A program made the position numbers and the translations under genes. Positions 7,894-59,692 of a DNA stretch of 64,000 bases are shown piece after piece. Each line of letters starts with the position of its first letter. Position 1 is the first letter of the stretch. The notes beneath the pieces are model-generated. The model saw only the letters and a program-made list of their open reading frames with translations, did not search any database and had not been told where the DNA came from. The DNA is taken from NCBI RefSeq assembly GCF_014200595.1, contig NZ_JACHCG010000001.1, forward strand, positions 2,480,001-2,544,000, read 5' to 3'. Source of the DNA: Pedobacter cryoconitis (lineage in GTDB: Bacteria; Bacteroidota; Bacteroidia; Sphingobacteriales; Sphingobacteriaceae).

Positions 7894-7943
7894 TAGGATC
7901 AATTTGGTGATCTGTTTGTAAATTGAAGTTTAATCTTTTCTTT

Positions 7944-9032: not shown

Positions 9033-9087
9033 ATAAGTATTTTTAAAGAATCAAATGCCCTTTTTTCTTCGTTTAAGGACAAATTAA

Positions 9088-9115
9088 CGGGATATTGGAT
9101 AAATAATCCCGATTT
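9088..9115 (+). terminator. Possible weak terminator after serine hydrolase
   Basis: A 6-bp stem (CGGGAT at 9088-9093, ATCCCG at 9106-9111) is followed by ATTTTA. The loop is 12 nt and the T-run is short, so support is modest. Confidence 0.35.
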
Positions 9116-9235
9116 TACAGATCAGAGATATAAAATGATGAAAATTATTATAACTAGAATTCAACACTTTAGCAGCAAAAACCAAAATATCCTGCTTTAT
9201 TATCACTTAAAACGTATTTATTCAAATTAAAATGA

Positions 9236-9243
9236 TACTTTTG
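9236..9243 (+). promoter_or_regulatory. Bacteroidota -7 box of tRNA-Lys
   Basis: TACTTTTG fits the TAnnTTTG consensus recognised by the Bacteroidota primary sigma factor. It lies 48 nt before the mature tRNA 5' end, a normal leader length for a tRNA precursor. A clear -33 TTG was not seen. Confidence 0.55.
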
Positions 9244-9291
9244 CATCACTGAAAACGGAAACGCTTCCAGTATTATTCTGAAAAGAATGAT

Positions 9292-9367
9292 GATTCCGTA
9301 GCTCAGCTGGTAGAGCATTACACTTTTAATGTAGTGGTCCTGGGTTCGAATCCCAGCGGGATCACCA
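9292..9367 (+). tRNA. tRNA-Lys (anticodon TTT), CCA encoded
   Basis: The cloverleaf can be drawn by hand: acceptor GATTCCG/CGGGATC with one G-U pair, D-arm GCTC/GAGC, anticodon stem TTACA/TGTAG with loop CTTTTAA (anticodon TTT), T-arm CTGGG/CCCAG with loop TTCGAAT, discriminator A and encoded CCA. The first 73 nt are identical to the second tRNA-Lys at 37533, but only this copy encodes CCA. Confidence 0.97.
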
Positions 9368-9386
9368 GATTTTAAATCAAAATTTC

Positions 9387-9425
9387 AAACCCCCATCAAA
9401 CAATTGTTTGATGGGGGTTTTGCTT
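9387..9425 (+). terminator. Rho-independent terminator of tRNA-Lys
   Basis: A near-perfect inverted repeat (arm ACCCCCATCAAACAA, complementary arm directly adjoining) ends in GGGGGTTTTGCTTTT. It lies 20 nt after the tRNA. Confidence 0.85.
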
Positions 9426-9567
9426 TTCCGGCAATTTCAAAACCGATAACGATTTCCATATAAATACTAATAAAAATGAGACTATTTGTCTGGATTTTGA
9501 TACTATTCGGTCGAATTCAGATAAGTTATTTATTTAATTTTAAAAATCCATTAACAGCAAGTTATCA

Positions 9568-10680
9568 ATGAGCAATAATAACCTTTCTGCAAAGCCGCAT
9601 TATCCGATATTGGATGGATTACGTGGCGTCGCAGCTATTATCGTAGTAACTTTTCACCTGACAGAGCCGCTGGGAACCGGGCATCTGGATATTCTGGTCA
9701 ATCACGGTTATCTGGCCGTTGACTTTTTCTTCCTGTTGTCGGGTTTTGTGATCGGTTATGCTTATGACGACCGCTGGCATAAAATGACCATCGGCACTTT
9801 CTTTAAGCGCCGGATCGAACGGCTTCAACCAATGGTGGTGTTAGGAATGAGCCTCGGGGCAATCGGATTCTATTTTACAGATTCAACGATCTGGCCGCTC
9901 ATTCATACCATTCCCCTATGGAAAATGCTGTTGGTAATGCTCATCGGTTATACTGTTCTGCCTGTTCCCTTATCACTGGATATACGAGGTTGGCAAGAAA
10001 TGCATCCACTCAATAGCGTAGGCTGGTCGTTGTTCTTTGAATACGTTGCCAATATCCTGTACGCCATTGGTGTCCGGAAGTTCTCAAAAACAGTGCTGGG
10101 TATTTTTGTGTTGATCGCAGCTATAGCGCTTGCCCATTTGGCCATTACTAACCCCAACGGAGATGTTAGCGGCGGTTGGACACTAAATCCGGAACAGGTA
10201 TTTATCGGTATTACCCGGACCATGTATCCTTTCTTTGCAGGCCTGCTGCTATCAAGGATAGCTAAACCCACCCGTATTAAACACGCCTTTTTATGGTGCA
10301 GCCTCATGATCGCCCTTGTCTTATATATGCCACGCATAGGCGGCGCTGAGCATGTTTGGATGAATGGGATCTATGAATCTGTATCTATAATCATTATTTT
10401 TCCGCTCATTGTTTATCTGGGTGCTAGCGGCGTAGTACATACCCAGGCTGAACGCAGAATATGCAAATTCTTAGGTGATATCTCCTATCCTCTTTACCTG
10501 GTACACTATCCTCTGGTATATTTTTACGTTGCCTGGATCAGCAATCATAAAGGCGTGACTATCGTGCAGGTATGGCCCTTTGCGCTATTGATCTTGATAG
10601 GTGGTATTGTTTTGGCGTATGCCAGTTTGAAATGGTATGATGAGCCAGTTCGCAAATGGCTGAGAAAAAAACTTGGATAA
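9568..10680 (+). CDS. Acyltransferase 3 (OafA/YrhL-like) membrane protein
   Basis: Integral membrane O-acyltransferase, 370 residues with about ten hydrophobic segments. The N-terminal family motif LDGLRGVAAIIVVTFHL includes the conserved His near residue 30, and FFLLSGFVIGYAY follows. The later motif SVGWSLFFEYVANILYAIG is the usual middle block. Such proteins acetylate or succinylate cell-surface sugars or antibiotics. Nothing nearby (no glycosyltransferases) points to the acceptor. It appears monocistronic. Confidence 0.9.
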   Translation: MSNNNLSAKPHYPILDGLRGVAAIIVVTFHLTEPLGTGHLDILVNHGYLAVDFFFLLSGFVIGYAYDDRWHKMTIGTFFKRRIERLQPMVVLGMSLGAIGFYFTDSTIWPLIHTIPLWKMLLVMLIGYTVLPVPLSLDIRGWQEMHPLNSVGWSLFFEYVANILYAIGVRKFSKTVLGIFVLIAAIALAHLAITNPNGDVSGGWTLNPEQVFIGITRTMYPFFAGLLLSRIAKPTRIKHAFLWCSLMIALVLYMPRIGGAEHVWMNGIYESVSIIIIFPLIVYLGASGVVHTQAERRICKFLGDISYPLYLVHYPLVYFYVAWISNHKGVTIVQVWPFALLILIGGIVLAYASLKWYDEPVRKWLRKKLG

Positions 10681-10810
10681 GCCAGGAAAATAAAACAAAA
10701 ATGATTGATTAATGTTGTTTTTTTCCTTGAAGAAGAAAAACATAACATTAAAATTCGTAAATTTTCATTTCTTTATTTTATCAGAAAACACAGGCCATCA
10801 AATTACACTT

Positions 10811-11950
10811 ATGAAACTGACTCTTCTCTCATTGTTATTATTGATTTTATGTTGTACTGAACGATTATCCGCACAGGAGAATCAGGCCTTTAGGAATGCG
10901 CCGAAAGTTATCAATGATCCCGGTAATTTTTACAAATATGCTGAGCATAGCCGGAAATTCTCAGGAATTCCAAGTATTACTGTCACCTCGAATGGCACTT
11001 TATGGGCCACCTGGTACGCTGGTATGACATCAGGTGAAGATGCAAACAACTATGTAGTACTGGCTACCAGTAAAGATCAGGGAGTTACATGGAAGGAAAT
11101 ACTGGTGGTGGATCCTGATGAAAAAGGGCCTGTCAGGGCATATGACCCGGAGATCTGGATAGATCCGGCTGGTAAACTCTGGCTGTTCTGGGCACAGACA
11201 ATAGGCCTGGAAGGTTCTGTAGCCGGAGTGTGGGCGATGACTGCTAATGATCCGGATTCCGAAAATCCGGTCTGGACTTCGGCAAAAAGGCTTTCCGACG
11301 GAATAATGATGTGTAAACCAACGGTTTTGTCGACAGGCGAATGGCTTTTGCCAGTATCTACCTGGAGGTTAACTGATGAGAGTGCAAAAGTGGTTGTGTC
11401 TACCGATAAAGGAGCAAACTGGACTGTAAAAGGAGCCTGTAATGTCCCTGAAGCTGATAGAGAATTTGATGAGCACATGTTAGTAGAGCGTAAAGACGGA
11501 TCACTATGGATGCTGCTCAGAACCAGATATGGAATAGCTGAAAGTTTCTCCAAAGACAAAGGTAAAAGCTGGTCTGTCGCAAAGCCCTCAGCCCTCCTTC
11601 ATACCAGTTCAAGGTTTTTCATCCGCAGGCTGAATTCGGGAAATTTATTGCTGATAAAACATGGCCCGATAGCAGTAAAAACAGGCCGGTCACATTTAAT
11701 GGCCTTTATTTCTAAAGATGATGGTAAAACCTGGTCAAGAGGATTGCTGATTGATGAAAGGGCTGGTGTTTCCTATCCGGATGCACAACAGGCAGCAGAT
11801 GGCAAGATTTATGTGACCTATGATTACAACCGGACTTTGGATCAGCAGATCATCATGACTGTCTTTACAGAAAAGGATATATTATCGGAAGATTACGACG
11901 CCGCTATGGTGAAAGTGTTTAATGAGAGAAAAATGATTAGTAAGAAATAA
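10811..11950 (+). CDS. Exported BNR-repeat sialidase-like protein
   Basis: Predicted secreted six-bladed beta-propeller of the sialidase superfamily. The ATG at 10811 is chosen over in-frame upstream codons because it starts a signal peptide (MKLTLLSLLLLILCC..., possibly lipidated at Cys14/15 or cut after SAQ). Four Asp-boxes are visible near residues 87, 197, 247 and 301 (SKDQGVTW, STDKGANW, SKDKGKSW, SKDDGKTW). The N-terminal Arg-Ile-Pro of true sialidases reads GIPSI here, so the first arginine of the catalytic triad is not obvious. Hydrolysis of sialic acid is therefore uncertain; related families act on other sugars. Confidence 0.82.
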   Translation: MKLTLLSLLLLILCCTERLSAQENQAFRNAPKVINDPGNFYKYAEHSRKFSGIPSITVTSNGTLWATWYAGMTSGEDANNYVVLATSKDQGVTWKEILVVDPDEKGPVRAYDPEIWIDPAGKLWLFWAQTIGLEGSVAGVWAMTANDPDSENPVWTSAKRLSDGIMMCKPTVLSTGEWLLPVSTWRLTDESAKVVVSTDKGANWTVKGACNVPEADREFDEHMLVERKDGSLWMLLRTRYGIAESFSKDKGKSWSVAKPSALLHTSSRFFIRRLNSGNLLLIKHGPIAVKTGRSHLMAFISKDDGKTWSRGLLIDERAGVSYPDAQQAADGKIYVTYDYNRTLDQQIIMTVFTEKDILSEDYDAAMVKVFNERKMISKK

Positions 11951-37532: not shown

Positions 37533-37605
37533 GATTCCGTAGCTCAGCTGGTAGAGCATTACACTTTTAATGTAGTGGTCCTGGGTTCGAATCCCAGCGG
37601 GATCA
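37533..37605 (+). tRNA. tRNA-Lys (anticodon TTT), island integration target
   Basis: The 73-nt gene body is identical to the tRNA-Lys at 9292, but no CCA is encoded: the discriminator A is followed by CAGAG. The last 25 nt are part of the 38-bp repeat shared with 59655-59692, so the 3' end of this functional gene is now supplied by the integrated island. Confidence 0.97.
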
Positions 37606-37618
37606 CAGAGAATAGTAT
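37581..37618 (+). repeat. attL of the genomic island (38-bp direct repeat)
   Basis: It begins CTGGGTTCGAATCCCAGCGG inside the tRNA T-arm and ends AGAGAATAGTAT just past the gene. It is identical to 59655-59692. Together the two copies bound about 22.07 kb that carries the integrase next to this end. Confidence 0.93.
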
Positions 37619-37727: not shown

Positions 37728-37852
37728 AAATTTTGGGATATTCAACTCACCAGAATGAATGTAAATATTTGATTTACAAAAAGTTCACTCATTGAACGAC
37801 TTGATGCGTTTAGACTGCAAGGCTAACTTTGTTTAACCTTAAATCAGTCATT

Positions 37853-39163
37853 ATGAAAACGAATTTCAATCTGCTTTTCTATTTGAAGAAACCAAAAAAC
37901 TATGTTAAAGGGGCTATCCCAATCTATTTAAGGATTACCGTAGACGGAAAACCTGCGGAACTATCAACTAGCAGAGAATGTGAACCCGAATTGTGGAATG
38001 CCAAAGCTGGACACATTGAAGGTACTAAAGAAGAGGCCAAAACCCTGAACAGCTATCTGGACAAGATGAAAGCCGGGGTTACTGCTTCTCATACACAGTT
38101 ATGTAAGGAAGATGCAGAAATTACTTCTCAGGTGATTAAAAGCAAGTATCTCGGTAAAGCAGAAAAAATGCATACCATTTGCGAGGCTATCAAAATCCAC
38201 AACAAAAACATGGCGGAATTGGTGGAAAAGGAAGACTATGCCGAAGGAACGCTAAAAAGATTTGAAATACTGGAAAGGCATGTTAAAGATTATTTATCCT
38301 TTAAATACCAGAAAAGTGATCTAAACATCAGGAGTATTGATTACGAGTTCATAGATGGCTTTGATTTCTACCTCCATACCTCAAAGGATAACGGGGCAAA
38401 CACTGCAAGTAAGCATCTTAAAAATCTTGGTAAAATTGTACGTATCTGCCTAAAAAATAAATGGATTAGTAGTGACCCCTTCTTAGGATATAAGTTGACA
38501 TCAAAACCCGTACTTCGGAATTACTTAACCCTGGATGAACTTCAAAGGATTGCAGATAAAAATTTCACTACTGAAAGACTTTCACAGGTACGGGACTTTT
38601 TCTTGTTTAGCTGTTATACAGGGCTGTCATATGCCGATGTGAAAAAGCTAAAACTATCAGATATACGTATCGGAATTGATGGGCAAAATTGGCTATTTAG
38701 TTATAGAAAAAAGACGGGTACACAGTTAGCTGTTCCCCTGCTGCCAGTTGCACTGGATATTTTGAACAGATACAAAAACTATCCATTTTGTATCAACTAT
38801 GACAGGGCTTTGCCAATTTCCAGTAACCAGAAGATGAACGAGTATCTGGTAGAAATAGCCGACCTTTCAGACGTTTACCAAACATTGGGGAACCGGATTG
38901 CAAAGCGCACCTTTGCAACTACTGTAACCCTGTTGAACGGTGTGCCTATTGAAAGCGTTTCTAAAATGATGGGACATACTAATATACGTACTACCCAGCT
39001 TTACGCTAAAATGATGGATGAAAAGGTAAGTAAAGACATGGCACCATTGATGGCAATGTTCACAACAAGCTTTGAAGCAGGTATAAAAATGATGGAAGCA
39101 AAAGAAACAGCGGAATCACCGAATTTGACCTTAGTGCCGGAGCAGTATTACAAAGCAATTTAA
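37853..39163 (+). CDS. Tyrosine-type site-specific integrase (CTnDOT-like)
   Basis: A 436-residue integrase from the ATG at 37853, chosen over an in-frame TTG 24 bp upstream. It has an arm-binding and SAM-like N-terminal half (about residues 1-210) and a catalytic domain (220-410). Box I reads CYTGLSYADV with Ser259 where most recombinases have Arg, a change also known in the CTnDOT integrase. The hairpin Lys (RKKTG, about 287), box III His375 (GHTNIRTTQ) and nucleophile Tyr384 (LYAK) are present. Box II, normally His-x-x-Arg, reads RIAKRTFAT (Arg348-x-x-Lys351), so activity may be altered. It is adjacent to attL. Confidence 0.92.
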   Translation: MKTNFNLLFYLKKPKNYVKGAIPIYLRITVDGKPAELSTSRECEPELWNAKAGHIEGTKEEAKTLNSYLDKMKAGVTASHTQLCKEDAEITSQVIKSKYLGKAEKMHTICEAIKIHNKNMAELVEKEDYAEGTLKRFEILERHVKDYLSFKYQKSDLNIRSIDYEFIDGFDFYLHTSKDNGANTASKHLKNLGKIVRICLKNKWISSDPFLGYKLTSKPVLRNYLTLDELQRIADKNFTTERLSQVRDFFLFSCYTGLSYADVKKLKLSDIRIGIDGQNWLFSYRKKTGTQLAVPLLPVALDILNRYKNYPFCINYDRALPISSNQKMNEYLVEIADLSDVYQTLGNRIAKRTFATTVTLLNGVPIESVSKMMGHTNIRTTQLYAKMMDEKVSKDMAPLMAMFTTSFEAGIKMMEAKETAESPNLTLVPEQYYKAI

Positions 39164-39391: not shown

Positions 39392-40024
39392 TTACACGAC
39401 TGGAAGGTAACTACCGGTTTCATCATCTTTTGAAAACTCTGAACCTATTGGCTCATCAAGAAGATGAATAAAGCTATCATCAAGGTTTAACACCTTTCCA
39501 ATTGAGATGTATTGTAAATTTGTAACATCGTCAACGTATTCTTGCGTCTCATAATCGCTCATCATTGTCCAACCAGAATAATCTTCATCATCAATTTCTT
39601 CCCGGTATAATCTTCCGACAAGATACCCTTCATTCATGATATGGTTGGAAACAAAGCATTTTTTTGTGAATTTTTGAATCACCTCAGCTAAAGGATCTTC
39701 AACAATTAATTCTTCCAGCGTGTCATATTGAATAATATGCTCTCTCCTGAATACAATGGAATCTCCTTCACTTAAATCTTTAATATGAAACGGAGCGTTA
39801 TCTAAAGTACCTGAATAATTACCATCTTCATCAACTGAATCCATAATAACCCACATTCTTTCCGCACTTGGGTCTTCGGGTTCATCAGATTCAAAAGAAA
39901 AGATTAGTTTCACTGTTGTTTCTCCAGGCTTTAACTTATCAATAATATCGTCAGATGGCCTATAGAAGGTATATGGCGCTTCCTCTCGAATTTCATTAGT
40001 GTTCTCTAATCTCCAACTAGGCAT
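39392..40024 (-). CDS. DUF2314-DUF2185 (Imm33-like) protein
   Basis: A 210-residue acidic cytoplasmic protein. The first part (VKLIFSFE...AERMWVIM...GTLDNAPF, about residues 37-95) matches the DUF2314 pattern. The second part (CFVSNHIMNEGYLVGRLYREE to LLDEPIGSEF, about 123-200) matches DUF2185, also described as the immunity domain Imm33. Immunity proteins of this kind neutralise polymorphic toxins, but no toxin gene lies beside it. It may be an orphan immunity gene or have a different role. It is co-transcribed behind the small HTH gene (38-bp gap). Confidence 0.72.
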   Translation of the reverse strand: MPSWRLENTNEIREEAPYTFYRPSDDIIDKLKPGETTVKLIFSFESDEPEDPSAERMWVIMDSVDEDGNYSGTLDNAPFHIKDLSEGDSIVFRREHIIQYDTLEELIVEDPLAEVIQKFTKKCFVSNHIMNEGYLVGRLYREEIDDEDYSGWTMMSDYETQEYVDDVTNLQYISIGKVLNLDDSFIHLLDEPIGSEFSKDDETGSYLPVV

Positions 40025-40768: not shown

Positions 40769-41665
40769 ATGGAAATGCACATCCTTTCAGCAGCAGATCA
40801 ACAGGCAAACTATTTTAAAACGTTCGTCAAGTCCCTGGTTGAGAAATTTCAACCCTTACAGCTTTTCTGCTTTGCCAAAACCAATCTATTATCGGAAACC
40901 ACTGGCTGTTTCCGGGATCAGGAGAATACTCATCATTGCAACTATTGTCTGTTAATGGTGACAGAAACCAGTGTCCGAATTGATCATGAGGTACAGGAGT
41001 TTACGAATGTACGCTACCGAAAAGGTAATGTTTCTATTATCTGTCATGGTCAGGAGTCCATTTTAGAGGCGATTAAAGCGAATAACAGATTTTTTATGAC
41101 TGTTTATACTTCCGGAAAGCTTCTGTATTGTCACGATGGTATGAGCCACTTTGATTTTACCGGGAAATTTATCCCTACGCAATCAGCAAATAAGGCGCAG
41201 AAACATTTTAACCACCGTATGCCATTGGCGGAAGGTTTTTTACATGGTGCGGGAGAGTGCCTTGCCAAGAAGGATTTTAATATTTCTGCTTTCATGCTTC
41301 ACCAGGTTGTAGAGCAATGTTGTATCCTCCTAATCCGGGTACATCTTGCTTACCGTTCAGAGGTACATAATCTACTTCGTATGCTACGGTTATGCGGTTC
41401 TTTTTCTGACAAACCCATTAAAACGTTTTTATCCGGTAACCGGGAAGATGAAAGGCTTTTTGACCTGCTGATGAAAAGCTATTCCGGTTCCCGTTATGGA
41501 ACAGGTTTCTCTGTTTCGGGAGACGATGCCCAAAGCCTGTTTGATCGTACTTCATTTTTCGTAAGCCTAGTTAAAGATATGTGCAGGGCAAAAATTGAAG
41601 AGCTGGAACATGGAGGTCTCTTGTATAAAGAATTGAAAGGAGAAAGTGAGGTAACAATTGATTAA
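40769..41665 (+). CDS. HEPN-domain protein with degenerate nucleotidyltransferase-like N-terminus
   Basis: A 298-residue protein common in Bacteroidota mobile elements. Residues about 10-130 resemble a nucleotidyltransferase fold but lack the Gly-Ser and paired-Asp catalytic motif. Residues about 150-290 look like a HEPN domain, with FMLHQVVEQCCILLI (His178) and a following RSEVHNLLRML. HEPN proteins are often RNases or regulators of nucleotidyltransferase toxins. The canonical Arg-x4-6-His is not clear here (Arg-x3-His), so RNase activity is doubtful. It starts 59 nt after the structured element's T-run and overlaps or abuts the next gene. Confidence 0.65.
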   Translation: MEMHILSAADQQANYFKTFVKSLVEKFQPLQLFCFAKTNLLSETTGCFRDQENTHHCNYCLLMVTETSVRIDHEVQEFTNVRYRKGNVSIICHGQESILEAIKANNRFFMTVYTSGKLLYCHDGMSHFDFTGKFIPTQSANKAQKHFNHRMPLAEGFLHGAGECLAKKDFNISAFMLHQVVEQCCILLIRVHLAYRSEVHNLLRMLRLCGSFSDKPIKTFLSGNREDERLFDLLMKSYSGSRYGTGFSVSGDDAQSLFDRTSFFVSLVKDMCRAKIEELEHGGLLYKELKGESEVTID

Positions 41666-44442: not shown

Positions 44443-45432
44443 TTAGTATCGCATGCCCTGATTTTGATCTTCACTTTGATCTTTACCTCTTTTCTTCTTT
44501 TTCCTTTTTGGTATAGGAGCTGATTCGGGCGCTACATATATGGGCTCCATCAAAATGCTCCACAAATCAACAGCGAATTTCCCTGTCGGGCTGGTCATTT
44601 CCCCAATACTTCCAAACAATCCTTCTGCCACCTCCATGCTGATGTCTTTCAGTATTTGAGAGCGTTCAGCTTGCTGGTTTGGAATGCCGTCCAAAATCTT
44701 CATCTGTGCCTTTTGTTCGGTTGTTCCATTTTTCATGGTATTGGCATAGGTTAAAGTATCTTTCAGCCCCCTGTCAAAATCAAACATCGTATCAAAAAGC
44801 TTTTCGCCGGATTGTTTAAACGCAGTTCGGTCAAACTCACCCAGTTTAGCGGAATGCTCCTTGTTCTTTCCCTTAGAGGTATTCTGTGGGCTAAGCTTAA
44901 TCGTATTGGTGAGGTCTTTACGGCTCACAATGATCTGAATGTGATCCTGCCGTCCCTCTTTGCGTTCCCCCTTTTGCCGGGTTCCTTGTTTAACTTCCTT
45001 GTCGTCATGTTTATAATAGCGAAAGTTTTCATGTTTGGCGTACCATAGCAGGTCTTTATGGCTATTGATTCCTGGTCTTTTAAAGTTTCTGGCGTACTCG
45101 TCCATCACCTTAACGGCAAATTCTTTCAGCTTTTCCTTTGCGCCATGCTCACCGTAGGTCTGGTAAAGGTGTGCCAGTTCCTTTTGACTGGGACTAACGT
45201 TGATCAGGAAAAACTTACTGTCGTTACGGCCAAGTTTGGCAATGTTGCGGTCAATCTTCATTCTGACTTCCTGCCTGCTGATTTCGTTGCCCATACCGTT
45301 AAACCAGTTTTCATGACCTAGAACCCGGCCTTTTTCGGCCTGTAAACGGTTCTCTTTTTCCAGGTAGTTGACCAGTGCCCCGCTGCTGCCTTTGTTATTT
45401 CCTGTTTCCGATGCGGTGATGTTGATGAACAT
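44443..45432 (-). CDS. Relaxase-like mobilisation protein (DUF5712 type)
   Basis: A 329-residue protein that probably nicks the element's transfer origin. The N-terminus MFINITASETGNNKGSSGAL, the motif RQDHIQIIVSRKD (residues about 155-167; likely metal or HUH-type histidine) and the lysine-rich middle fit the DUF5712 relaxase-like family of Bacteroidota. The C-terminal tail is very basic (PKRKKKKRGK). The catalytic Tyr cannot be assigned with certainty. It starts 2 bp after the BfmA/BtgA-like gene. Confidence 0.75.
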   Translation of the reverse strand: MFINITASETGNNKGSSGALVNYLEKENRLQAEKGRVLGHENWFNGMGNEISRQEVRMKIDRNIAKLGRNDSKFFLINVSPSQKELAHLYQTYGEHGAKEKLKEFAVKVMDEYARNFKRPGINSHKDLLWYAKHENFRYYKHDDKEVKQGTRQKGERKEGRQDHIQIIVSRKDLTNTIKLSPQNTSKGKNKEHSAKLGEFDRTAFKQSGEKLFDTMFDFDRGLKDTLTYANTMKNGTTEQKAQMKILDGIPNQQAERSQILKDISMEVAEGLFGSIGEMTSPTGKFAVDLWSILMEPIYVAPESAPIPKRKKKKRGKDQSEDQNQGMRY

Positions 45433-47502: not shown

Positions 47503-48333
47503 CTAATATTTACCGTTTCTTTTGTTTCTTGTCGTTGGGAAAACTGTAGGAACTCGATCTATCATTCTGATTTCAATAATTGGTGATTTACAAGGTTTGG
47601 TGTCTTCAGAGATAATAGCGCCAACCCAACCTTCTGTGTATTCTTTCGGAGTCTCCCTTGTACCATAAAGAAAGTTCTTCGCTACCCATTTTTCAAGGTC
47701 AGATTTCAGGCAGCCTGTAATGAGATTGGCTTCAATCAATTGCTTAAAGGCATCCGCAAGCTGGTTGCCATTGCCTCTAAAAATCAACCGATTTGTAAGT
47801 GATTTGCTATCAGAAATTAATGCCGAAAGCTGTATTTGATCCTCCTCGGAAAAATAGGATTTCATTATTTTAAGAAAGTCATTGGCCGACTGTTGATCGA
47901 ATTTGGGCATACCAGCGTCTGCATTATAAGGAATTGTGACTGAAAAATTTGAAAGAGCACAACTGTCGGTCTTCTGGCTAGCTTGCTTAGATTTCCATTC
48001 CTCAAATGTTTCAGCTGGGGTTAATATTGCTTCAACCTCATTGATTAGCTCATTCAGATACTTTTCCCGGATTTTAACAGAATCATTAAGGCTTTCTACA
48101 AATTCATCACCAATAAAAATATCAGTGTGATCGGATTGCAAATTCTTCACTATAAAAAGGTCGTCGAGACGAACGGAAAAAATAAAGTTGCGTGGATATT
48201 CTGCCTGAAGTTCACTGTAATGTTGGTGAAAATTTGTCCAGAATAATTTAAACCTTTCTTTTAACTTTTTAAGTTGCTCTAATTCCCTTTTTAAACTTAT
48301 GTCATTAAGAGATAGCAGGTCTACCAATGCCAT
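47503..48333 (-). CDS. RteC-like hypothetical protein
   Basis: A 276-residue protein. The C-terminal part (residues about 175-250: LTNRLIFRGNGNQLADAFKQ, LEKWVAKNFLY, EGWVGAIIS) follows the pattern of the RteC C-terminal domain, a regulator of excision in CTnDOT-type elements. The N-terminal half is charged and helical and not recognised. The link is by pattern only. It may control the excision-type HTH genes just downstream. Confidence 0.5.
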   Translation of the reverse strand: MALVDLLSLNDISLKRELEQLKKLKERFKLFWTNFHQHYSELQAEYPRNFIFSVRLDDLFIVKNLQSDHTDIFIGDEFVESLNDSVKIREKYLNELINEVEAILTPAETFEEWKSKQASQKTDSCALSNFSVTIPYNADAGMPKFDQQSANDFLKIMKSYFSEEDQIQLSALISDSKSLTNRLIFRGNGNQLADAFKQLIEANLITGCLKSDLEKWVAKNFLYGTRETPKEYTEGWVGAIISEDTKPCKSPIIEIRMIDRVPTVFPTTRNKRNGKY

Positions 48334-48631: not shown

Positions 48632-49657
48632 ATGGCATTTAAAACATTATTCTATAGCTGGCAGTCCGACTTAGATCCTGATCAACATCATTATTTGATC
48701 CGTGATGCACTTAAAAGTGCTATCAAGATTATCAATAAAGAGATTGATTTTGAATTGAGTCTTGACAAGGACACGCAAAAGACTAGCGGTAGCCCGGATA
48801 TTGTCGATACAATCTTAAAAAAGATACGTATGGCAGATATTTTTGTAGCCGACGTAACCATTATCAATCCAGGGTACGCTGGAAGAAAAACCCCGAATCC
48901 TAATGTTTTAATTGAACTAGGTTATGCGATAAAAGCTCTTGGATGGGAGCGTATTATTTGCGTGGTAAACACTGATCAATGTCGACCAGAAGACTTGCCT
49001 TTTGACATCCGTAATAACCGCACAAGTACTTATAGTGTAAATAAAGCAGGTGTCAAGGGCGCGGAGAAAAACCTGACTGATATATTTACTATGGCTATAC
49101 GCGCGATTTTAGATGATTATGAAGGTATCTTAGAGAGATTTACCAAGGATGAATATCTGGGACATGATAAGGCCATTTTTGAAAAATTCAACGAGATAGC
49201 CTCGCAGGTTGAGATCTTTGAAAGCTTGGATATTCTTTGCACTTCACTGTCAATCAACAAAACACATTACTATTTATGGAATCTGGTAGAAAATTTTCGT
49301 AAGGGGCTGGAAAATCATTTCCTTAATGTGGAGATTCAGGAAACTTTCGAAGCTTTTGCTGATTTACTAAATAAGATTCATTTATTGGCTGCCCAAAAAT
49401 TATTTCCACAAAATCTATCGGGCATGAAATATATCGCAGAATACGAAACGCAAGGTATCCCAATTACACCTGAGATTCGTTATGAGGTTTATCAGACGCA
49501 CTGGTATAAAATTCCAGATAGTCCGGCTGATGGTGATTGGAATGCCTATGGTATTCGTGTATCTGATCTTCAGACAGAGTTCAACCGACAGACTGAGCAG
49601 ATCGAAGCGGCTTATAAAGCTTTCCGCTTATCCATTAAAAAACATCTTTTAATATAA
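48632..49657 (+). CDS. SWQSD-family TIR/deoxyribosyltransferase-like protein
   Basis: A 341-residue protein. The N-terminal domain begins FYSWQSDLDP (residues 7-16) and continues with SPDIVDTILKKIRMADIFVA (Asp74 follows) and PNPNVLIELGYAIKALGWER (Glu95). This is a Rossmann-like fold in which the Glu in the NVLIELG motif corresponds to the catalytic Glu of TIR-type NADases and nucleoside deoxyribosyltransferases. Residues 150-341 are a helical region of unknown role. It heads a three-gene plus-strand operon (33-bp gap to the next gene). NAD or nucleotide cleavage in phage defence is an inference. Confidence 0.68.
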   Translation: MAFKTLFYSWQSDLDPDQHHYLIRDALKSAIKIINKEIDFELSLDKDTQKTSGSPDIVDTILKKIRMADIFVADVTIINPGYAGRKTPNPNVLIELGYAIKALGWERIICVVNTDQCRPEDLPFDIRNNRTSTYSVNKAGVKGAEKNLTDIFTMAIRAILDDYEGILERFTKDEYLGHDKAIFEKFNEIASQVEIFESLDILCTSLSINKTHYYLWNLVENFRKGLENHFLNVEIQETFEAFADLLNKIHLLAAQKLFPQNLSGMKYIAEYETQGIPITPEIRYEVYQTHWYKIPDSPADGDWNAYGIRVSDLQTEFNRQTEQIEAAYKAFRLSIKKHLLI

Positions 49658-49690
49658 AAAATAGAATCAGAGATCATAAATTGAATATAC

Positions 49691-51682
49691 GTGACTCAAT
49701 TTCCTTCAAGACATCCAAATCATAGTTTGGAATACAAATCGGAACTTTTTTTAAGGAACAAATTACCTACGGAATGGATCATAGATAAACCAACTGATTA
49801 TGGTATCGATTTTAAAATTGAAGTCGTATTAAATGGTGCAGTTAATGGTCAGAATTTTTCAGTTCAGCTAAAAGCACATCAGAAAATAGAAAAAAGAAAA
49901 GGGATTTCGGTCAAATTGGAACGTACTACGGTTAATTTGTATCTGAGTAGATTAGAACCCTTGTTGCTGATATGTTATGTGGCAGAAGATATTGAAGCCT
50001 ATTACTGCTGGTTTAATGAACGATCGGTTGACCTGACAAAAAAAAATAAAACCTTTTCTATTAGTTTTGATTCTTCAAAAAAAGTAAGTGAATTGGACTG
50101 GAATGAAATATCAAGTTACGTCAATACTATTTTTAGCAGAAAGTTTCTACTCCATGCCTTTCCAGAGTTTGACTTTTCGATGATGGGCAAAGGTGAGAAG
50201 GATGCTGCCGCCTATTATCTCAAAAAAGATTATGAAACTGCAAAATTTTTATTCGATAAACTTAATAAAGACAATCCAAATGCTTGCTGGTTGAATTCTA
50301 TTGCAATGTGCCAATATGGGCTCTACCATTATAAAGATGCACTTGCATCGGTGAATGAAGCCCTGGAGATCACCGATCTCTTAGAAATCAAACTGAATAA
50401 GGCGTCAATTTTAGCTGAATACGGGATCGAAGCTAAAAATCGTGCTATGGTTATCGAAGCAAGTGGCATATTCAAGTCTGCAATAGATGAAATTGGAGAG
50501 GCACATCATTATTTTAATTATGCGAATACACTTACCGAACTAGGTCAATACGAAGAGGCAGAAAAACATTATAAAAAGGCACTCGATTTAAATCCAAATT
50601 ATGCTGAATCCTGGAAGAACTTAGGGCATATTTATTCCTTCTACAGAAATCTGGAAAAAGAAATGCAATGTTACAATAATGCATTATCTATCAAACCTGA
50701 TTTGCCACAAGCGTTAATATGTAAGGGAATAGCTTTAATCAAGGATTTGAATAATTTTAATGAAGGCATTTCATATCTTAAGAAAGCATTGGAAGCTGAT
50801 AGTAAACTTTTCCTTAAATATACAAGTGGATATTTTTGGTTTGCTTACGCATATCTTAAAATTAGTGATTATGAGAACGGACTTAGATTCTTGGAAAAAG
50901 GACTTAAACAATATCCTGGTGATCCATATTTACTGAATCTTAAGAGAGACTACTTAAAGGATAATTGGCGAAAAAACATTATGCTGAGAGTTCAAGCGAA
51001 AGAATTCATGTTATACCGTCTTAGACTCCAATCCGACGATACATCGGCCTTAGAATGTCTTTGCAGGATTCTGCTTTATGAGAAAAATAAAACCGCTGCA
51101 TTAGTCCAGCTGACAAAACATACTGTTATTTTCCAGCGTACTCAGATTACGGATATAAAAAACGAATCCTTTGATATAGAGCCCTATTTAAGCTCTTTAT
51201 ATAATTATCATAACTATTGCGAGTTTCGAAACGTGCATCCACTGGAAAAGGATCTTAATAGTCACTTATTTCCTCCGGTTTATATTGAATTCAATGAGTT
51301 AGTCGGATTAAAATTATTTCATGAGTGTTTACAATACATCAAGATTCACAAAAATGATAAATCATTTGAGAAAAATCTCTTTAAACACCTATTTGAGCAA
51401 GCATATCTTTATTATCCGAAAACGGCGCCATATATGATTACCGCTAATGTAAAAGAGCCTGAAGCTTTTGGTGAGCAAATGTGCAATGCTATCATACATA
51501 TTCCTATACTAGCAATGAGAGAGGTAGGACGGATTAATGGGTATCTGAGGATAAAACTTGGATTAGATAGTAAAAAAATGGATGTGGCAATTAAAAACGC
51601 CAACGAAACTGCTGCAAGTAAGAAGATATTTGAGGCTTGTTTGGTTATGATACAAGAACGGTTTAGTTTTTTTTCAAAGTAA
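49691..51682 (+). CDS. DUF4365 nuclease-like protein with TPR array
   Basis: A 663-residue protein with a GTG start. The N-terminal DUF4365 domain has the PD-(D/E)XK pattern: Glu14/Glu18, Asp40 in YGIDFKIEV and Gln59-x-Lys61 in FSVQLKAH. Residues about 165-430 are tetratricopeptide repeats (for example YEEAEKHYKKALDLNPNYAE). The C-terminal 200 residues are helical and unrecognised. It is the second gene of the operon, ending 7 bp before the PIN-like gene. The combination suggests a nuclease controlled by a repeat-based sensor, as in many defence genes. Confidence 0.78.
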   Translation: MTQFPSRHPNHSLEYKSELFLRNKLPTEWIIDKPTDYGIDFKIEVVLNGAVNGQNFSVQLKAHQKIEKRKGISVKLERTTVNLYLSRLEPLLLICYVAEDIEAYYCWFNERSVDLTKKNKTFSISFDSSKKVSELDWNEISSYVNTIFSRKFLLHAFPEFDFSMMGKGEKDAAAYYLKKDYETAKFLFDKLNKDNPNACWLNSIAMCQYGLYHYKDALASVNEALEITDLLEIKLNKASILAEYGIEAKNRAMVIEASGIFKSAIDEIGEAHHYFNYANTLTELGQYEEAEKHYKKALDLNPNYAESWKNLGHIYSFYRNLEKEMQCYNNALSIKPDLPQALICKGIALIKDLNNFNEGISYLKKALEADSKLFLKYTSGYFWFAYAYLKISDYENGLRFLEKGLKQYPGDPYLLNLKRDYLKDNWRKNIMLRVQAKEFMLYRLRLQSDDTSALECLCRILLYEKNKTAALVQLTKHTVIFQRTQITDIKNESFDIEPYLSSLYNYHNYCEFRNVHPLEKDLNSHLFPPVYIEFNELVGLKLFHECLQYIKIHKNDKSFEKNLFKHLFEQAYLYYPKTAPYMITANVKEPEAFGEQMCNAIIHIPILAMREVGRINGYLRIKLGLDSKKMDVAIKNANETAASKKIFEACLVMIQERFSFFSK

Positions 51683-51689
51683 TCTAATA

Positions 51690-53189
51690 ATGTCGAGAAT
51701 ATATTTTGACACGAATGTTTTTAGCAATCTTAGGATTAATAGTTTGCCGCAATATCAGACGTTAAATCAATTAATTGTTGAACGAAAAGATAGATTGAGC
51801 GTTTATTTTTCAATTGGTCATATTAGAGATAAGCGTAAAGACCAGTCTGACTATAAATTTCTGGATTTCGAGTTCATGGAATTTTTAACAGGGGACAATT
51901 ATTTGGCCTATGATCCAATTGAACGTCGTCCTGGCTTTTATCTTGCTACGCCAAAAATGGCTTTTGATGATGATAGTCCGGATAATGAGTATACTTCCGC
52001 AATGAATATATTTGAGCCATCTGAAGATGATGATCAAATGAACGCTTCGTTCAAATCAATGCTTAGGTCAATATTTGAGAACCTTCCTATAGGAATCGAT
52101 AACAGTATATTTGAAAACTTGCCACAAGAGCAAAAGAAACTAGTGTCATCTTTCTTGCCATTAGAAGAGGGAGCTTCCTTTTTAGATCTAATGAACAATA
52201 TGATACAATTTACCGAGGAACTTCATAAGGATAGTAATTTGTACAAGGATCTTAGGACAATGGTTGACAAGGGAATGAACAATGGGCAAATAACATTAAA
52301 CGGAGATATCGATTTTAACGAAGCACTCAAGGATACTGCAATTCAGAAAACCTTTTTTGATTTTATCAAAGATACAATCTACTACAAGGACAAAGATAAG
52401 ATCCCATATTATGATTTCTTTCAATTGGCCTATAATATGCTCGATGTATTAGGTATAAGCAAAGATAAAATCACTAAAAAAAATACCCTAGGGAATCTCC
52501 AGAATGATGGTTATCATTCTTATTTTGCTGGATATTGCGATTATTTTATAACTGACGATAAGACAATAACTTCAAAAGCTAAAGCTTTATATAATCTCCT
52601 CGGCATTAAAACTCAGGTGCTTTCCGTCGACGAATTTAATGAAGTTCTACCAGAGCTTCTCAGCGATAAAAGAGACGATTGGGATTCTTTGTTGAACAAG
52701 CTTGCATGGGATTTTAAAAACGCAGAAAGAAAAGAGCCAATAATTGTAGATGGAGTTATTACATCGAGATTGGGGCGAAATCACAGATATCTTGATTTCT
52801 GTGATTCTGTTATTGAGATTTCATCTAAAGATTGCCGTAAACTAATTGCATTTAAAGGAGACGCACATTCTCTCTCAGACCCAAGCTATAGCGAATGTAA
52901 AAAAATAATTCATTGCGCACTATTAATATTGGGAAATGATGATGAGTTGAAGCTTGAATTTGACTACCAAAAGTTTAATAGTGATACAAATGTGCCTTTA
53001 TCAAGGCAATGGAAAATTAGTGAACAGTTTTCCATTGAACTTAATTTTCATCCTGAGATAAACGGGAAATATGGATTGGCATTTATCTTCCCTCGGATTG
53101 AGAATAAACCAATAGGAAGATGGAGAAAGCTCCAATTAGCTATTATTGAACAATTTCGTAAACTAATATTCAAAAAAAACAATAATTAA
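51690..53189 (+). CDS. PIN-like nuclease with a large insertion
   Basis: A 499-residue protein. The first PIN strand IYFDTNVFS (Asp7) is at the N-terminus. The rest of the active site appears only near residues 273-290: NDGYHSYFAGYCDYFITDDK gives Asp273, His276, Asp284 and Asp289. About 250 residues of helical insertion separate the halves. The C-terminal part (about 335-499) is unrecognised and ends in a basic tail. It probably cuts RNA or DNA. It is the last gene of the TIR-like / DUF4365 operon. Confidence 0.72.
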   Translation: MSRIYFDTNVFSNLRINSLPQYQTLNQLIVERKDRLSVYFSIGHIRDKRKDQSDYKFLDFEFMEFLTGDNYLAYDPIERRPGFYLATPKMAFDDDSPDNEYTSAMNIFEPSEDDDQMNASFKSMLRSIFENLPIGIDNSIFENLPQEQKKLVSSFLPLEEGASFLDLMNNMIQFTEELHKDSNLYKDLRTMVDKGMNNGQITLNGDIDFNEALKDTAIQKTFFDFIKDTIYYKDKDKIPYYDFFQLAYNMLDVLGISKDKITKKNTLGNLQNDGYHSYFAGYCDYFITDDKTITSKAKALYNLLGIKTQVLSVDEFNEVLPELLSDKRDDWDSLLNKLAWDFKNAERKEPIIVDGVITSRLGRNHRYLDFCDSVIEISSKDCRKLIAFKGDAHSLSDPSYSECKKIIHCALLILGNDDELKLEFDYQKFNSDTNVPLSRQWKISEQFSIELNFHPEINGKYGLAFIFPRIENKPIGRWRKLQLAIIEQFRKLIFKKNNN

Positions 53190-53287: not shown

Positions 53288-55099
53288 TTATTCGTCTTCA
53301 TTTATGATATCTGTGAAGTCAAACTCTAAAAAATCAGTTATTGACCATTCTATATATTCGTCGAAGGATTCCAAGCTGTCAACGGGAGGATTATTAATAT
53401 GATTTAGGTTTATATTAGCATCAGCAATGATCTTATGAAAATTGATCATTCTGGACTCCATATTTTTGTAAAACACTTCATGGTCAGTCTCTCCCTTAAC
53501 TAACTTCTCGTAATTTTCCAGATGTGAGTGCTGTAATTCCTTCTCTTGTATCAAATTATAGATAAGGCTAAGTGTTGTAATGGAAGCATCTGAATGACAT
53601 GTAAAGTCTTCGATCTTATATTTCAGGAATAGACATAGCACTTGTGTTTCAGGATGAGAGATATTCTCACAATAACCGCATACCTTATCCAATATGACAG
53701 TTTTCTTAAGCAAACCATCACCTGCGGTTTTATCTTTGATTTTACCAGCACAACATAAATCTGCATTCCAATTATCAAAAAATTCACGAATATACGCGCT
53801 CCTATATAGCCATGATAAGTGATCCATAGCTAGATTACTTAACGCCAACACATAATTTAGATTTGCTGCAATTTCGATAACCTTAGTAATCCGTTCAAAA
53901 TACTTTTGTTGTATAATCTCCCATTTCTCATATAATCTATCTTTTAGGTAAGATCCACCAAACCAAAATAGATTTGTTAGATTTTTGGTAAAGTCATGGG
54001 TTAGAATAATGAGTTCTATGGAAAGAATTTTTGAGTAGCCAACAATTCGTGCTTGAATGTTGTCTGGTTCTCTCTCAATTATATTAGTAATATTTTTATA
54101 GAGAGTTTTTATTCTTTGCGTAGATGTTCCTTCTTCATCATAAAAAAGCTGACAGGCTTTCTCAATCTCAAGAAATGACCCTAAATCTTTCCCTTCTAAT
54201 AATTTTTTATTTTCAGAATCATAAGTTTCTTCATTTAATATTCCCAACAAATATTTTGCTTGAAGAAGGATATAATTAAGGATTGCTTTTTGATCTGGTT
54301 CAAACGATGACGATTTACGATCGGCTTTTTTAAGATAGTCAATTGCCTTATAAATCTGTGCTTTATGAAAATAAGCCATTCCGCAAACATAATTGAATAT
54401 TGGGGACATCTCCCTACCTCCTAGATATGTGCGTTGCTCTATTTCAATAATCCTTTGAAATTCAAAATCATTTAATAGCCTAAAGCCACAATTTTCAATA
54501 AATGAAAGATTCTGCTCTACGCTGTAGACTTCGTTGTCTTCATCAATCATTATACCTGCACCTAGTTGTTTTCCGGCAGCTGTATTTTTTATGTGAGAAT
54601 TGAGTCTTCTAAGCAATAAACCGTTATGCAATGTATCCTCATAAATAGAATGTATAGCAAGTTCATCAAGATTTTTTGAAAAGTGAAAGGTGTATTTGCG
54701 TGGCAAAGGGGAATTTTGATACTTTTTAATCATTGATTGATAAATTTCTTTTGCATTTGCAAAAAGGAATCTATCCTCACGCTGATCATAAAGTATATAA
54801 TAAGCTGGCATTCCATAGTTTAACAAGTAATTAATATTATTTACCTCTATACCAAATGACAAAGATAAATCTGTATTAGCTTTAATATGACCAGTGGCTT
54901 TCAACTGTATAATAAATCGAAAATTCGTATAATAATCATTTTCCTTAATCTCCACTATCAAATCAACCCCTTTGTCTCTAACTAGTTCATGCCTAATTTC
55001 AAACAGTGAATTATGGAACAATAAAGCCAATTTATTTCTAGAAATTGTTTCTAGACTTTCATTGGAGCTTGATTTAGGTAAAGTTGAGCGATAATCCAT
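53288..55099 (-). CDS. Second DUF4365 protein with helical repeat region
   Basis: A 603-residue protein on the opposite strand, convergent with the PIN-like gene. The N-terminal DUF4365 nuclease pattern is Asp46 (GVDLIVEI, with Glu50) and Gln65-x-Lys67 (FIIQLKATG). The remainder is helical, TPR-like (for example AYFHKAQIYKAIDYLKKAD near residue 245). It has the same architecture as the 49691 protein but little sequence similarity by eye. It contains several Cys near residue 440 (CCAGKI, VCGYCENI). It may be a stand-alone defence gene. Confidence 0.72.
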   Translation of the reverse strand: MDYRSTLPKSSSNESLETISRNKLALLFHNSLFEIRHELVRDKGVDLIVEIKENDYYTNFRFIIQLKATGHIKANTDLSLSFGIEVNNINYLLNYGMPAYYILYDQREDRFLFANAKEIYQSMIKKYQNSPLPRKYTFHFSKNLDELAIHSIYEDTLHNGLLLRRLNSHIKNTAAGKQLGAGIMIDEDNEVYSVEQNLSFIENCGFRLLNDFEFQRIIEIEQRTYLGGREMSPIFNYVCGMAYFHKAQIYKAIDYLKKADRKSSSFEPDQKAILNYILLQAKYLLGILNEETYDSENKKLLEGKDLGSFLEIEKACQLFYDEEGTSTQRIKTLYKNITNIIEREPDNIQARIVGYSKILSIELIILTHDFTKNLTNLFWFGGSYLKDRLYEKWEIIQQKYFERITKVIEIAANLNYVLALSNLAMDHLSWLYRSAYIREFFDNWNADLCCAGKIKDKTAGDGLLKKTVILDKVCGYCENISHPETQVLCLFLKYKIEDFTCHSDASITTLSLIYNLIQEKELQHSHLENYEKLVKGETDHEVFYKNMESRMINFHKIIADANINLNHINNPPVDSLESFDEYIEWSITDFLEFDFTDIINEDE

Positions 55100-57217: not shown

Positions 57218-58411
57218 ATGGGGCATTATAAAGAAATGTACGGATATAATAATCAAGGTGGTAATGATTTTGGAGATGATAAGTGTTTATGTGAGGGGCA
57301 TTTGAAAGATGATGCTATCGCAGAGTATATACGTAAGAATTCAGATGATGGAGTTTGCAGTTATTGTGGAGAATATACTAAAATAGCTCTGGCAAGAGAT
57401 GTTTTTTCGTTTATAAAAGGTGGAGTATTTGCTTTTTATGGAGAAGTAAATGATGAGGGTATGGCATATGAAACCGAAGAAGATGGTTATCATGGTGCTC
57501 CGAAATTTGACACGGAGGATATGTTGTACTATGAAATCGGTTTGGAGACAGATAATGATAACCTGTGGAAGGATATTCTTTTAGTATTTGGTAATCAGGA
57601 ATGGTGTGAAAAAGATCCTTACGCTGATAGAGAAAATGTAGAACTAGAATATAATTGGAATCAATTTAAACAAGTTGTCAAACATAAATCCCGCTATGTA
57701 TTCCTGGGTTCTAATCAGTTCAAAGAAAGTATGAATCAGTTACCTGTAGATGAAATTCTTGATGATATTGGTAGACGTGTTGATAATCTTAATTTGTTTA
57801 AGTTGTTACCTATAGGTACTCTCTTATATAGATGTAGACAACACAAAAGCTCTGAGATATTAACTCAGGCTAAACAACTCGCTGCGCCACCTTATCATTT
57901 AGCCAATACGTCCAATAGAATGAGTCCTGCGGGTATATCTATGTTTTATTGTGCTTTTGATGTACCGACCTGTCATGCCGAAACTATAGATGCAACTGAC
58001 ATTGTAAAGGATCAGGTTACAACTGGTGTTTTTCAGAATAAAGAAAAGCTCTTTTTATTAGATCTAACTAAATTGCCCGCTTTACCAAGCATCTTTGATC
58101 CTGCAAAACGAAATAATTATTTTTCAATTATGTTCTTAGAAAAGTTTGTGCAAGATTTGAGTAAACCAATAGAAAAAGATGGCAGTGAGCATATTGAGTA
58201 TGTTCCTACACAAATCATAACAGAATATTTTCGATATACTTACGAGGATCGAACAGGCGGAAGTGTTGATGGCATTATATATCCAAGTTCTAAATTAGGT
58301 GGCAAATATGCATGCGTATTGTTTTATGATCATGTGGAATCTATAAAAAAGTTGGAATTTGTTGACACAAAGTTGGAAACTACACCCATTTTTAAAAATT
58401 CTAGTAATTGA
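57218..58411 (+). CDS. RES-domain (NAD+-phosphorylase-like) protein with HEPN_RES_N-like N-terminus
   Basis: A 397-residue protein. The N-terminal part has a zinc-ribbon-like set (Cys23, Cys25, Cys47, Cys50) and a helical region as in HEPN-associated RES proteins. Residues about 195-385 form the RES fold, with Arg205/207 in LLYRCRQHK, Glu255 in CHAET and Ser357/358 in IIYPSSK as the likely Arg-Glu-Ser set. RES toxins such as MbcT degrade NAD+. The usual Xre-type antitoxin gene is absent; the partner is probably the HEPN-like gene 73 bp downstream. Confidence 0.8.
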   Translation: MGHYKEMYGYNNQGGNDFGDDKCLCEGHLKDDAIAEYIRKNSDDGVCSYCGEYTKIALARDVFSFIKGGVFAFYGEVNDEGMAYETEEDGYHGAPKFDTEDMLYYEIGLETDNDNLWKDILLVFGNQEWCEKDPYADRENVELEYNWNQFKQVVKHKSRYVFLGSNQFKESMNQLPVDEILDDIGRRVDNLNLFKLLPIGTLLYRCRQHKSSEILTQAKQLAAPPYHLANTSNRMSPAGISMFYCAFDVPTCHAETIDATDIVKDQVTTGVFQNKEKLFLLDLTKLPALPSIFDPAKRNNYFSIMFLEKFVQDLSKPIEKDGSEHIEYVPTQIITEYFRYTYEDRTGGSVDGIIYPSSKLGGKYACVLFYDHVESIKKLEFVDTKLETTPIFKNSSN

Positions 58412-58484: not shown

Positions 58485-59471
58485 ATGGAAAATTACGCAA
58501 AGAAGCTTATTACTAAGCTTTATGATAAAAAGATAAAAAAAACGCTTGACAGCAATTTGAAAGAGTCAACAAAAACTTGTTTATATGGCTTTATGGACTA
58601 CTTAAATGCCTTAACTAAAACCCATGTTAAAAAAGATGTTTCCAACAATGCAGAATATATCATTGGTACAATATTTAAAAATATAGGATTGATTCGAAAG
58701 CAGGTTGAATACAATAATTTTATGAAAGCGAGTTTATCTTTAGCTAATAACAAATTTAATGGATTGGTTAAAATTATTGAAGGTGATGACCCTAAAATGA
58801 AACATAATACCATTATGAAATTTTCAGATTTGATTAATGACTATATTAAAGATTTAAAGCCATTCATAGAATATTTTGAGAGAAAGAAAAAGCCTGACTT
58901 TATCTTATTTAATGGCTGGAAATCATATAATAACGAAACCTACGAGCTGGCAATGATTAGCAATAATCTATACTGGAATGGGTTCTACAAAGAAAATATT
59001 TTTGATCAAAAAATGGCTATTAATATTGCATGTTTTACTCTCAGGCAGGCATTAGAGATCAAGTTTAAAAGGATATGTGGTATTTACGATATCTACAATC
59101 GGAAGTTTGATGGCCCTAAATTAAGACACGATTTTTTTCCCGAATTTATTGACGACAATTCTGATCTACTTGAATTACCTTATGTACATTTGACTGATCT
59201 CATTAAAGTTTACAAATGGACTAATCTCACTATACATAATGCAGAAAATCCGATGATATGGGAATTAAGATTTGCGCTTGATTATGTAAACCCCTTTTTC
59301 AAGTGGGGCGAATTAGTAAACAAGAACGGAAGCTCAGTAAAATCGGTTCATGGAGCAGTGATCATAAAAGATTATGATGAACTTAAAAAAAGACTAATGG
59401 ATAAAATTAACCAAATTAGCAATGATATTTTTTGTATTGAGTTTATAAAGCCAGAAGCATTTATAGAATAA
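58485..59471 (+). CDS. HEPN-like protein downstream of the RES gene
   Basis: A 328-residue, strongly AT-coded helical protein. Residues about 180-225 (FTLRQALEIKFKRICGI, then KLRHDFFPEF) resemble the core helices of HEPN domains. The N-terminal 140 residues are helical and unrecognised. As the last gene of the island and directly behind the RES protein, it may be its partner or antitoxin. This is inferred from position only. Confidence 0.55.
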   Translation: MENYAKKLITKLYDKKIKKTLDSNLKESTKTCLYGFMDYLNALTKTHVKKDVSNNAEYIIGTIFKNIGLIRKQVEYNNFMKASLSLANNKFNGLVKIIEGDDPKMKHNTIMKFSDLINDYIKDLKPFIEYFERKKKPDFILFNGWKSYNNETYELAMISNNLYWNGFYKENIFDQKMAINIACFTLRQALEIKFKRICGIYDIYNRKFDGPKLRHDFFPEFIDDNSDLLELPYVHLTDLIKVYKWTNLTIHNAENPMIWELRFALDYVNPFFKWGELVNKNGSSVKSVHGAVIIKDYDELKKRLMDKINQISNDIFCIEFIKPEAFIE

Positions 59472-59654: not shown

Positions 59655-59692
59655 CTGGGTTCGAATCCCAGCGGGATCACAGAGAATAGTAT
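59655..59692 (+). repeat. attR of the genomic island (38-bp direct repeat)
   Basis: A perfect copy of 37581-37618 holding the 3' 25 nt of tRNA-Lys plus 13 bp of flank. The rest of the tRNA is absent here, so it is not a functional gene. Confidence 0.93.

Follow-up and report, generated by a model that had tools for sequence, protein, structure and literature searches.

In the 64,000-nucleotide stretch of Pedobacter cryoconitis DNA analysed here (contig NZ_JACHCG010000001.1, positions 2,480,001 to 2,544,000; hereafter the window, within which all coordinates below are positions), three adjacent genes, g1, g2 and g3, lie in the cargo of a mobile element integrated at a tRNA-Lys gene. The parts of the locus belong to known kinds; taken together, we are inclined to read them as a stack of three self-contained effectors of the abortive-infection type, not as one machine, and consider this reading rather probable. 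The three genes, with the one that follows them, are:

48632..49657, + strand: g1, 341 amino acids (aa); SWQSD TIR-domain protein, with TIR at about residues 1-160 (N91, E95, D125) and a helical C-terminal half (163-339)
49691..51682, + strand: g2, 663 aa, GTG start; DUF4365 (PD-(D/E)XK-like), tetratricopeptide repeats (TPRs) and a C-terminal region
51690..53189, + strand: g3, 499 aa; split PIN-fold protein
53288..55099, - strand: another DUF4365 gene, 603 aa, running towards g3

Gaps of 33 bp (g1-g2) and 7 bp (g2-g3) separate the three + strand genes, and the GTG start of g2 lines up with MTQFP-type starts in its relatives. Upstream of g1, at a distance of 298 bp, a 276-aa gene (47503-48333) runs in the opposite direction; downstream, the 603-aa gene is convergent, so the three-gene run stops at g3. 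A sigma-70-like promoter scan stayed at background (38, with 35.3 expected), no promoter pattern of the Bacteroidota type was found upstream of g1, and terminator-like sites numbered eight (3.9 expected), the two on the + strand being inside g1 and g3. The three genes are probably co-transcribed.

Structure prediction covered g1 and g3, g2 being known from its sequence. The PIN fold of g3, with its acidic residues, places the protein in the PIN superfamily, and the domain is divided between distant parts of the chain, as indicated by the model, the VIA range, and D7 and D273/D290: halves that we put at about residues 1-75 and 240-326 flank a mostly helical insert of roughly 165 residues. A split of this sort is also seen in DS-3 (DefensePredictor discovered system 3), published as a one-protein anti-phage split PIN for which catalytic residues are needed (PMC13092281). 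Beyond the second half, residues 330-471 (52677-53102) form an alpha/beta C-terminal part which is kept in the family; it has no clear fold match in the listed structure matches, and is a candidate regulator. In an alignment of 62 rows (four being repeats of others, leaving 58 distinct sequences), D273, H276, D290 and K296 are kept in all 62 aligned rows, D7 in 60 and D47 in 61, the remainder being gaps. Its main active-site letters being fully conserved in these aligned sequences, the g3 family is the most useful part of the locus. A PADLOC match of g3 to PDC-M11A (E 2.6e-4, residues 276-322) was set aside as weak and local, and matches to sequences in the PDB (ToxN at E 0.12, antibody chains and others, apolipoprotein, FD15) were dropped as being at chance level.

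The nuclease half of g2 is recognised by the DUF4365 profile (residues 26-129, E 5.3e-13, 49.7 bits against a cut-off of 24.3) and carries the D...Q-x-K motif of the PD-(D/E)XK type: among the best 105 of 205 matches, Q59 and K61 are kept in all 105, and D36 and D40 each in 104, with one gap. The TPRs occupy roughly residues 170-420, with the best matches at 272-335. A PADLOC match to Aga_REase is limited to residues 33-127, i.e. the nuclease part.

For g1, the Pfam TIR family PF10137 falls just short on the protein itself (23.1 bits against a curated cut-off of 24.7) and matches all 48 aligned relatives at E<=1e-3 (best 1.8e-8). The predicted structure is a TIR fold with the conserved catalytic-type glutamate found in the TIR effectors of CAP12/Pycsar type, and N91, E95 and D125 are kept in 120/120 aligned rows (the best 120 of 1,619 matches). 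The C-terminal half (163-339) has no clear fold match in the listed structure matches, and a PADLOC match of g1 to PDC-S35 was discarded as weak and local. The original prediction had described three same-strand genes spaced by 33 and 7 bp, a TIR-like domain with the glutamate of NVLIELG in g1, a DUF4365 nuclease domain joined to a TPR array in g2 and a PIN active site split along the chain of g3; on all of this our analysis agrees, with the genes at the coordinates given above, E95 as the invariant glutamate, and the predicted fold of g3 and its conserved D7 and D273/D290 bearing out the split.

Do relatives of the three genes stay together? An alignment scan of genome contigs with g3 gave 21 loci, 13 of them with a long match and eight (L014-L021) matching part of g3. 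Flanks of at most 10 kb were read at these loci, and some contigs are short (L007, 4.1 kb; L011, 6.4 kb; L020, 4.1 kb). Among 251 genomes of the family, g3 relatives were found in 12 others at E 1e-15, two of which are the records of L004 and L011, so that the 21 genome-contig loci, ten new family loci and a relative from the genus (L097) make 32 distinct g3 loci. Outside the window neither g1 nor a full-length g2 was found near g3 relatives at any of these (0/21 and 0/11), in the flank available. What lies upstream of g3 relatives differs from place to place: a 346-aa gene without a family, putAbiC, an aldo-keto reductase gene, Mrr_cat, or DUF4238 beside a YhcG nuclease. An opposite-strand open reading frame (ORF) is upstream in eight of 21 long g3 loci, the ORFs being the longest non-overlapping ones of at least 60 aa, so that some of these upstream ORFs may not be genes. 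Relatives of g3 itself are broken or shortened at three of the 32 loci (L019, 9995-11321; L087, 6657-8043; L097, 7964-8644), a sign of occasional gene loss. One locus (L080, 6884-10552, - strand) has an operon-like run of a gene for a 490-aa Mrr_cat nuclease, the g3 relative and, with an overlap of 4 bp, a 257-aa gene.

Relatives of g2 occur in one of the 251 family genomes at E 1e-40 (the window's own) and in four of 395 genomes of the phylum at E 1e-60; at the three other g2 loci, with flanks of 9.8-16 kb, both g1 and g3 are absent. The g1 relatives come from four other family genomes (E 1e-30) and three other genomes of the phylum (E 1e-40). Both g2 and g3 are absent from all five g1 loci read with 9.8-16 kb, and from two further ones represented by 2.2-3.7 kb of sequence each; two g1 relatives adjoin ordinary metabolic genes. 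At the DNA level, the 144 other genomes of the genus contain no second copy of the trio; five of them match it in short stretches only (at best 71% over about 310 bases of g3). Plasmids gave no g3 match and no DNA match of the trio; g2 matches 28 plasmid records, all at below 60% identity and none covering 80% (the best, residues 1-367, at 23%). No g3 or g2 relative was found in viral contigs by alignment-based searches. The separate distribution rests on genome, plasmid and viral sequences, and the closest relatives lie on metagenome contigs. A search confined to PMC found no literature joining DUF4365 with a PIN domain and a TIR domain, or DUF4365 with tetratricopeptide.

On this distribution across the loci examined, we reject a conserved three-gene operon. 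The suggestion in the original prediction that the trio is one system did not survive its own co-occurrence check in the flanks read, some of them short, partners being found at none of 32 g3, three g2 and five g1 loci (one of these five with a full-length g1); its domain assignments and the abortive-infection flavour that it gave to the locus are supported, and the set as a single system is not.

One possible exception proved to be something else: the DUF4365 gene near the g3 relative of Pedobacter sp. KBW06 (L001) is covered by the g2 profile over residues 5-113, and is a relative of the 53288-55099 gene, not g2. This gene (L001, 4066-5889; 54% identity) is 4 kb from the g3 relative and looks like shared island cargo, so that islands of one type may carry both g3 and DUF4365 genes of the 53288-55099 type.

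The island in the window has these landmarks:

37533..37606, + strand: tRNA-Lys(TTT), the integration site (ARAGORN)
37581..37618, + strand: att-type repeat on the tRNA side, 38 bp, exact
37829..39163, + strand: tyrosine integrase (PF13102, PF17293, PF00589)
44443..45432, - strand: DUF5712 protein (family match), presumably with a mobilisation role
59655..59692, + strand: att-type repeat on the far side, 38 bp, exact

Since 38 bp comprising the 3' end of the tRNA gene and its flank are repeated exactly at 59655-59692, the element spans about 22.1 kb with g1-g3 inside, and the placing of the three genes in the cargo of a tRNA island was correct. Besides DUF5712, the element encodes two HTH_17 proteins and HEPN, RusA-like and HEPN_RES_NTD1/RES proteins. 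Directly after the integrase is a gene combining an Imm33 immunity-type domain with DUF2314 (39392-40024, - strand); a 298-aa HEPN-domain protein (40769-41665, + strand) is followed by an overlapping 441-aa gene without a family; at 57218-58411 (+ strand) HEPN/RES N-terminal domain 1 is fused to a RES domain; and 58485-59471 (+ strand) encodes a 328-aa protein without a Pfam family, for which PADLOC gives a weak match to Csn2, local to residues 5-79 (E 2.6e-4) and probably due to chance. A second tRNA-Lys(TTT) gene (9292-9367), 28 kb away, is identical to that at 37533-37606 over 74 bases and is the only one of the two with an encoded CCA end; the six scanned ORFs between them are of ordinary types.

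If the three genes are indeed a stack, one element would carry three separate kill-switches, probably transcribed together, and every effector would have a regulator region to itself: the helical half for TIR, the TPRs for DUF4365, and the insert and C-terminal part for the split PIN. In g1, a probable NADase, the helical C-terminal half may sense infection or drive assembly. In g2, a probable nuclease, the TPR half would sense or bind a trigger and so free the DUF4365 active site. In g3, a probable single-protein ribonuclease, the insert and the C-terminal domain would hold the PIN domain inactive until infection, in the way that the authors of DS-3 suggest for their system (PMC13092281). An anti-phage role and independent action of the three would complete the picture, and the locus would then be a compact natural case of three kill mechanisms (probably loss of NAD+, cleavage of DNA and cleavage of RNA) on one element.

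Several observations weigh against such independence. g1, g2 and g3 are closely spaced (33 and 7 bp), and neither gap yielded a terminator-like site; a same-strand ORF is upstream in 13 of 21 long g3 loci, and in some it encodes another nuclease; a full-length match was obtained for one of seven chromosomal g1 relatives (G435); and several of the g3 contigs are short. There are also two hints of pairwise links. P0167, related to g2 (57%), and P0129, related to g3 (55%), share a source and are both listed on a longest contig of exactly 6,631 bp, which is probably one and the same; in a comparison that took, from the listed rows other than self matches, 74 of 119 for g1, 78 of 119 for g2 and all 40 for g3, such a shared match would be expected by chance about 0.004 times among close relatives and 0.12 times overall. 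(Another coincidence, of P0141 and P0049 at 1,958 bp, was put down to chance, as the sources differ and 1,958 bp is too short for 409 + 319 codons.) The other hint comes from viral contigs, where g1 relatives were found at 21 loci, L044 and L045 among these being one sequence, counted once: on this IMG/VR sequence a 344-aa PIN gene (8938-9972) ends 16 bp before an SWQSD-TIR gene (9989-10966), in the reverse of the order of g1 and g3. The PIN gene, seen as a neighbour of the g1 relative, matches the g3 profile at E 4e-10; no other gene close to it was found in viral contigs, and 295 genomes of the class yielded one weak match. Each hint is a single case, and the links they suggest are weak. In a different locus (L057), an ADP-ribosyltransferase-type gene (PF03496; 6969-7649) overlaps the start of an SWQSD-TIR gene (7624-8823), which places side by side two parts that may use NAD.

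The 7-bp gap and the probable common contig of P0167 and P0129 would fit a two-gene defence module of g2 and g3, with g1 an unrelated rider, in which g2 senses and g3 executes or the two gate each other; if true, this would be a new two-gene module. Also in its favour are the 346-aa gene of Pedobacter sp. KBW06, 11 bp upstream of g3, which has by eye a D...ECK pattern and no family match, and the Mrr_cat gene 46 bp upstream of g3 in one other genome. Full-length g2 is, however, at no other examined g3 locus and g3 at none of three g2 loci; the contigs listed for five close g3 relatives (59-77%) measure 9.8-30.6 kb, and none of these lengths recurs among the 78 g2 relatives compared; and the genes upstream of g3 vary (putAbiC, aldo-keto reductase, genes without a family, opposite-strand ORFs). 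We regard the module as unlikely, though with some claim to attention. A single integrated three-gene abortive-infection system, with the TPR-nuclease as sensor and TIR and PIN as further effectors, is suggested by the operon-like layout, the intact active-site residues of all three proteins and the PIN/TIR pair of the IMG/VR sequence, and double-effector short Argonaute systems have been described (PMC10810196); but the trio was not met again at any examined locus, and each family occurs elsewhere without the others, which makes it improbable. It is likewise quite unlikely that the TPR-gated DUF4365 nuclease is a shared sensor co-triggering the TIR NADase and the split PIN ribonuclease, so that NAD+, DNA and RNA are attacked together; the rarity of the trio would then mean that it is young, or has been put together more than once out of interchangeable parts, which the L044 pair of PIN and TIR genes would suggest. 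Lastly, genes within a repeat-bounded element might serve the element itself, by excluding rival elements or plasmids or by addiction, and not phage defence of the host, and two g3 relatives also have, no more than 10 kb away, an integrase related to that of the island (L006, 46%; L009, 29%). Yet no small antitoxin-like gene is beside g3 in the window, three g3 relatives (L007, L012, L083) have restriction or YhcG-type nuclease genes nearby, and the related effectors known from the papers cited here protect against phage or against other DNA that invades the cell. A role confined to the element seems improbable to us.

We return to the stack of separate effectors for comparison with known systems. 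g1 resembles the CAP12/Pycsar-type TIR effectors, such as the TIR of SfSTING (7un8), in the presence of PF10137 among its relatives, in fold, and in the N-x3-E spacing (N80/E84 in SfSTING, N91/E95 in g1). In SfSTING the TIR domain acts as an NADase, E84 being the catalytic residue and N80 part of the active site (PMC9402430), and this TIR belongs with the PF10137 TIRs in one clade (PMC13142454). Unlike such effectors, g1 is without a Pfam-recognised STING, SAVED or Pycsar ligand domain, its C-terminal half being a helical region of its own; of the 21 ORFs at 37829-62727 that reach 100 aa, 20 were scanned with PADLOC, and none matches a cyclase profile as expected for CBASS or Pycsar.

g2 is like the DUF4365 effectors of short Argonautes (TmuRE/SPARDA). 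TmuRE, a DUF4365-APAZ protein, degrades DNA non-specifically once its Argonaute partner finds a target, Q62/K64 are given as the potential active site, and DUF4365 appears as a DNA-degrading defence effector (PMC10810196). The Q-x-K of g2 (Q59/K61), read by eye and not from an alignment to TmuRE, would correspond to Q62/K64. In g2, unlike TmuRE, a TPR array stands where APAZ is, and no Argonaute profile matches near it (PADLOC, 20 scanned island and flank ORFs).

Lastly, g3 shares the PIN fold and acidic residues with VapC and other PIN toxins, but at 499 aa, with its insert of what we estimate as roughly 165 residues and no small antitoxin gene in front, it is not the short VapC of a VapBC pair: upstream, at 7 bp, is the 663-aa g2, and the downstream gene is convergent. 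In design g3 resembles DS-3. It defines a Bacteroidota family (58 distinct sequences aligned) that matches this newly described one-protein split-PIN design, and the key question that it poses is how a split domain is kept off. Compared by description (PMC13092281), the two agree in having a ribonuclease-type PIN domain split across one chain, in that g3 can occur without a same-strand upstream gene, and in having no adjacent antitoxin-like gene; they differ in that g3 continues for about 170 further residues after its second PIN half.
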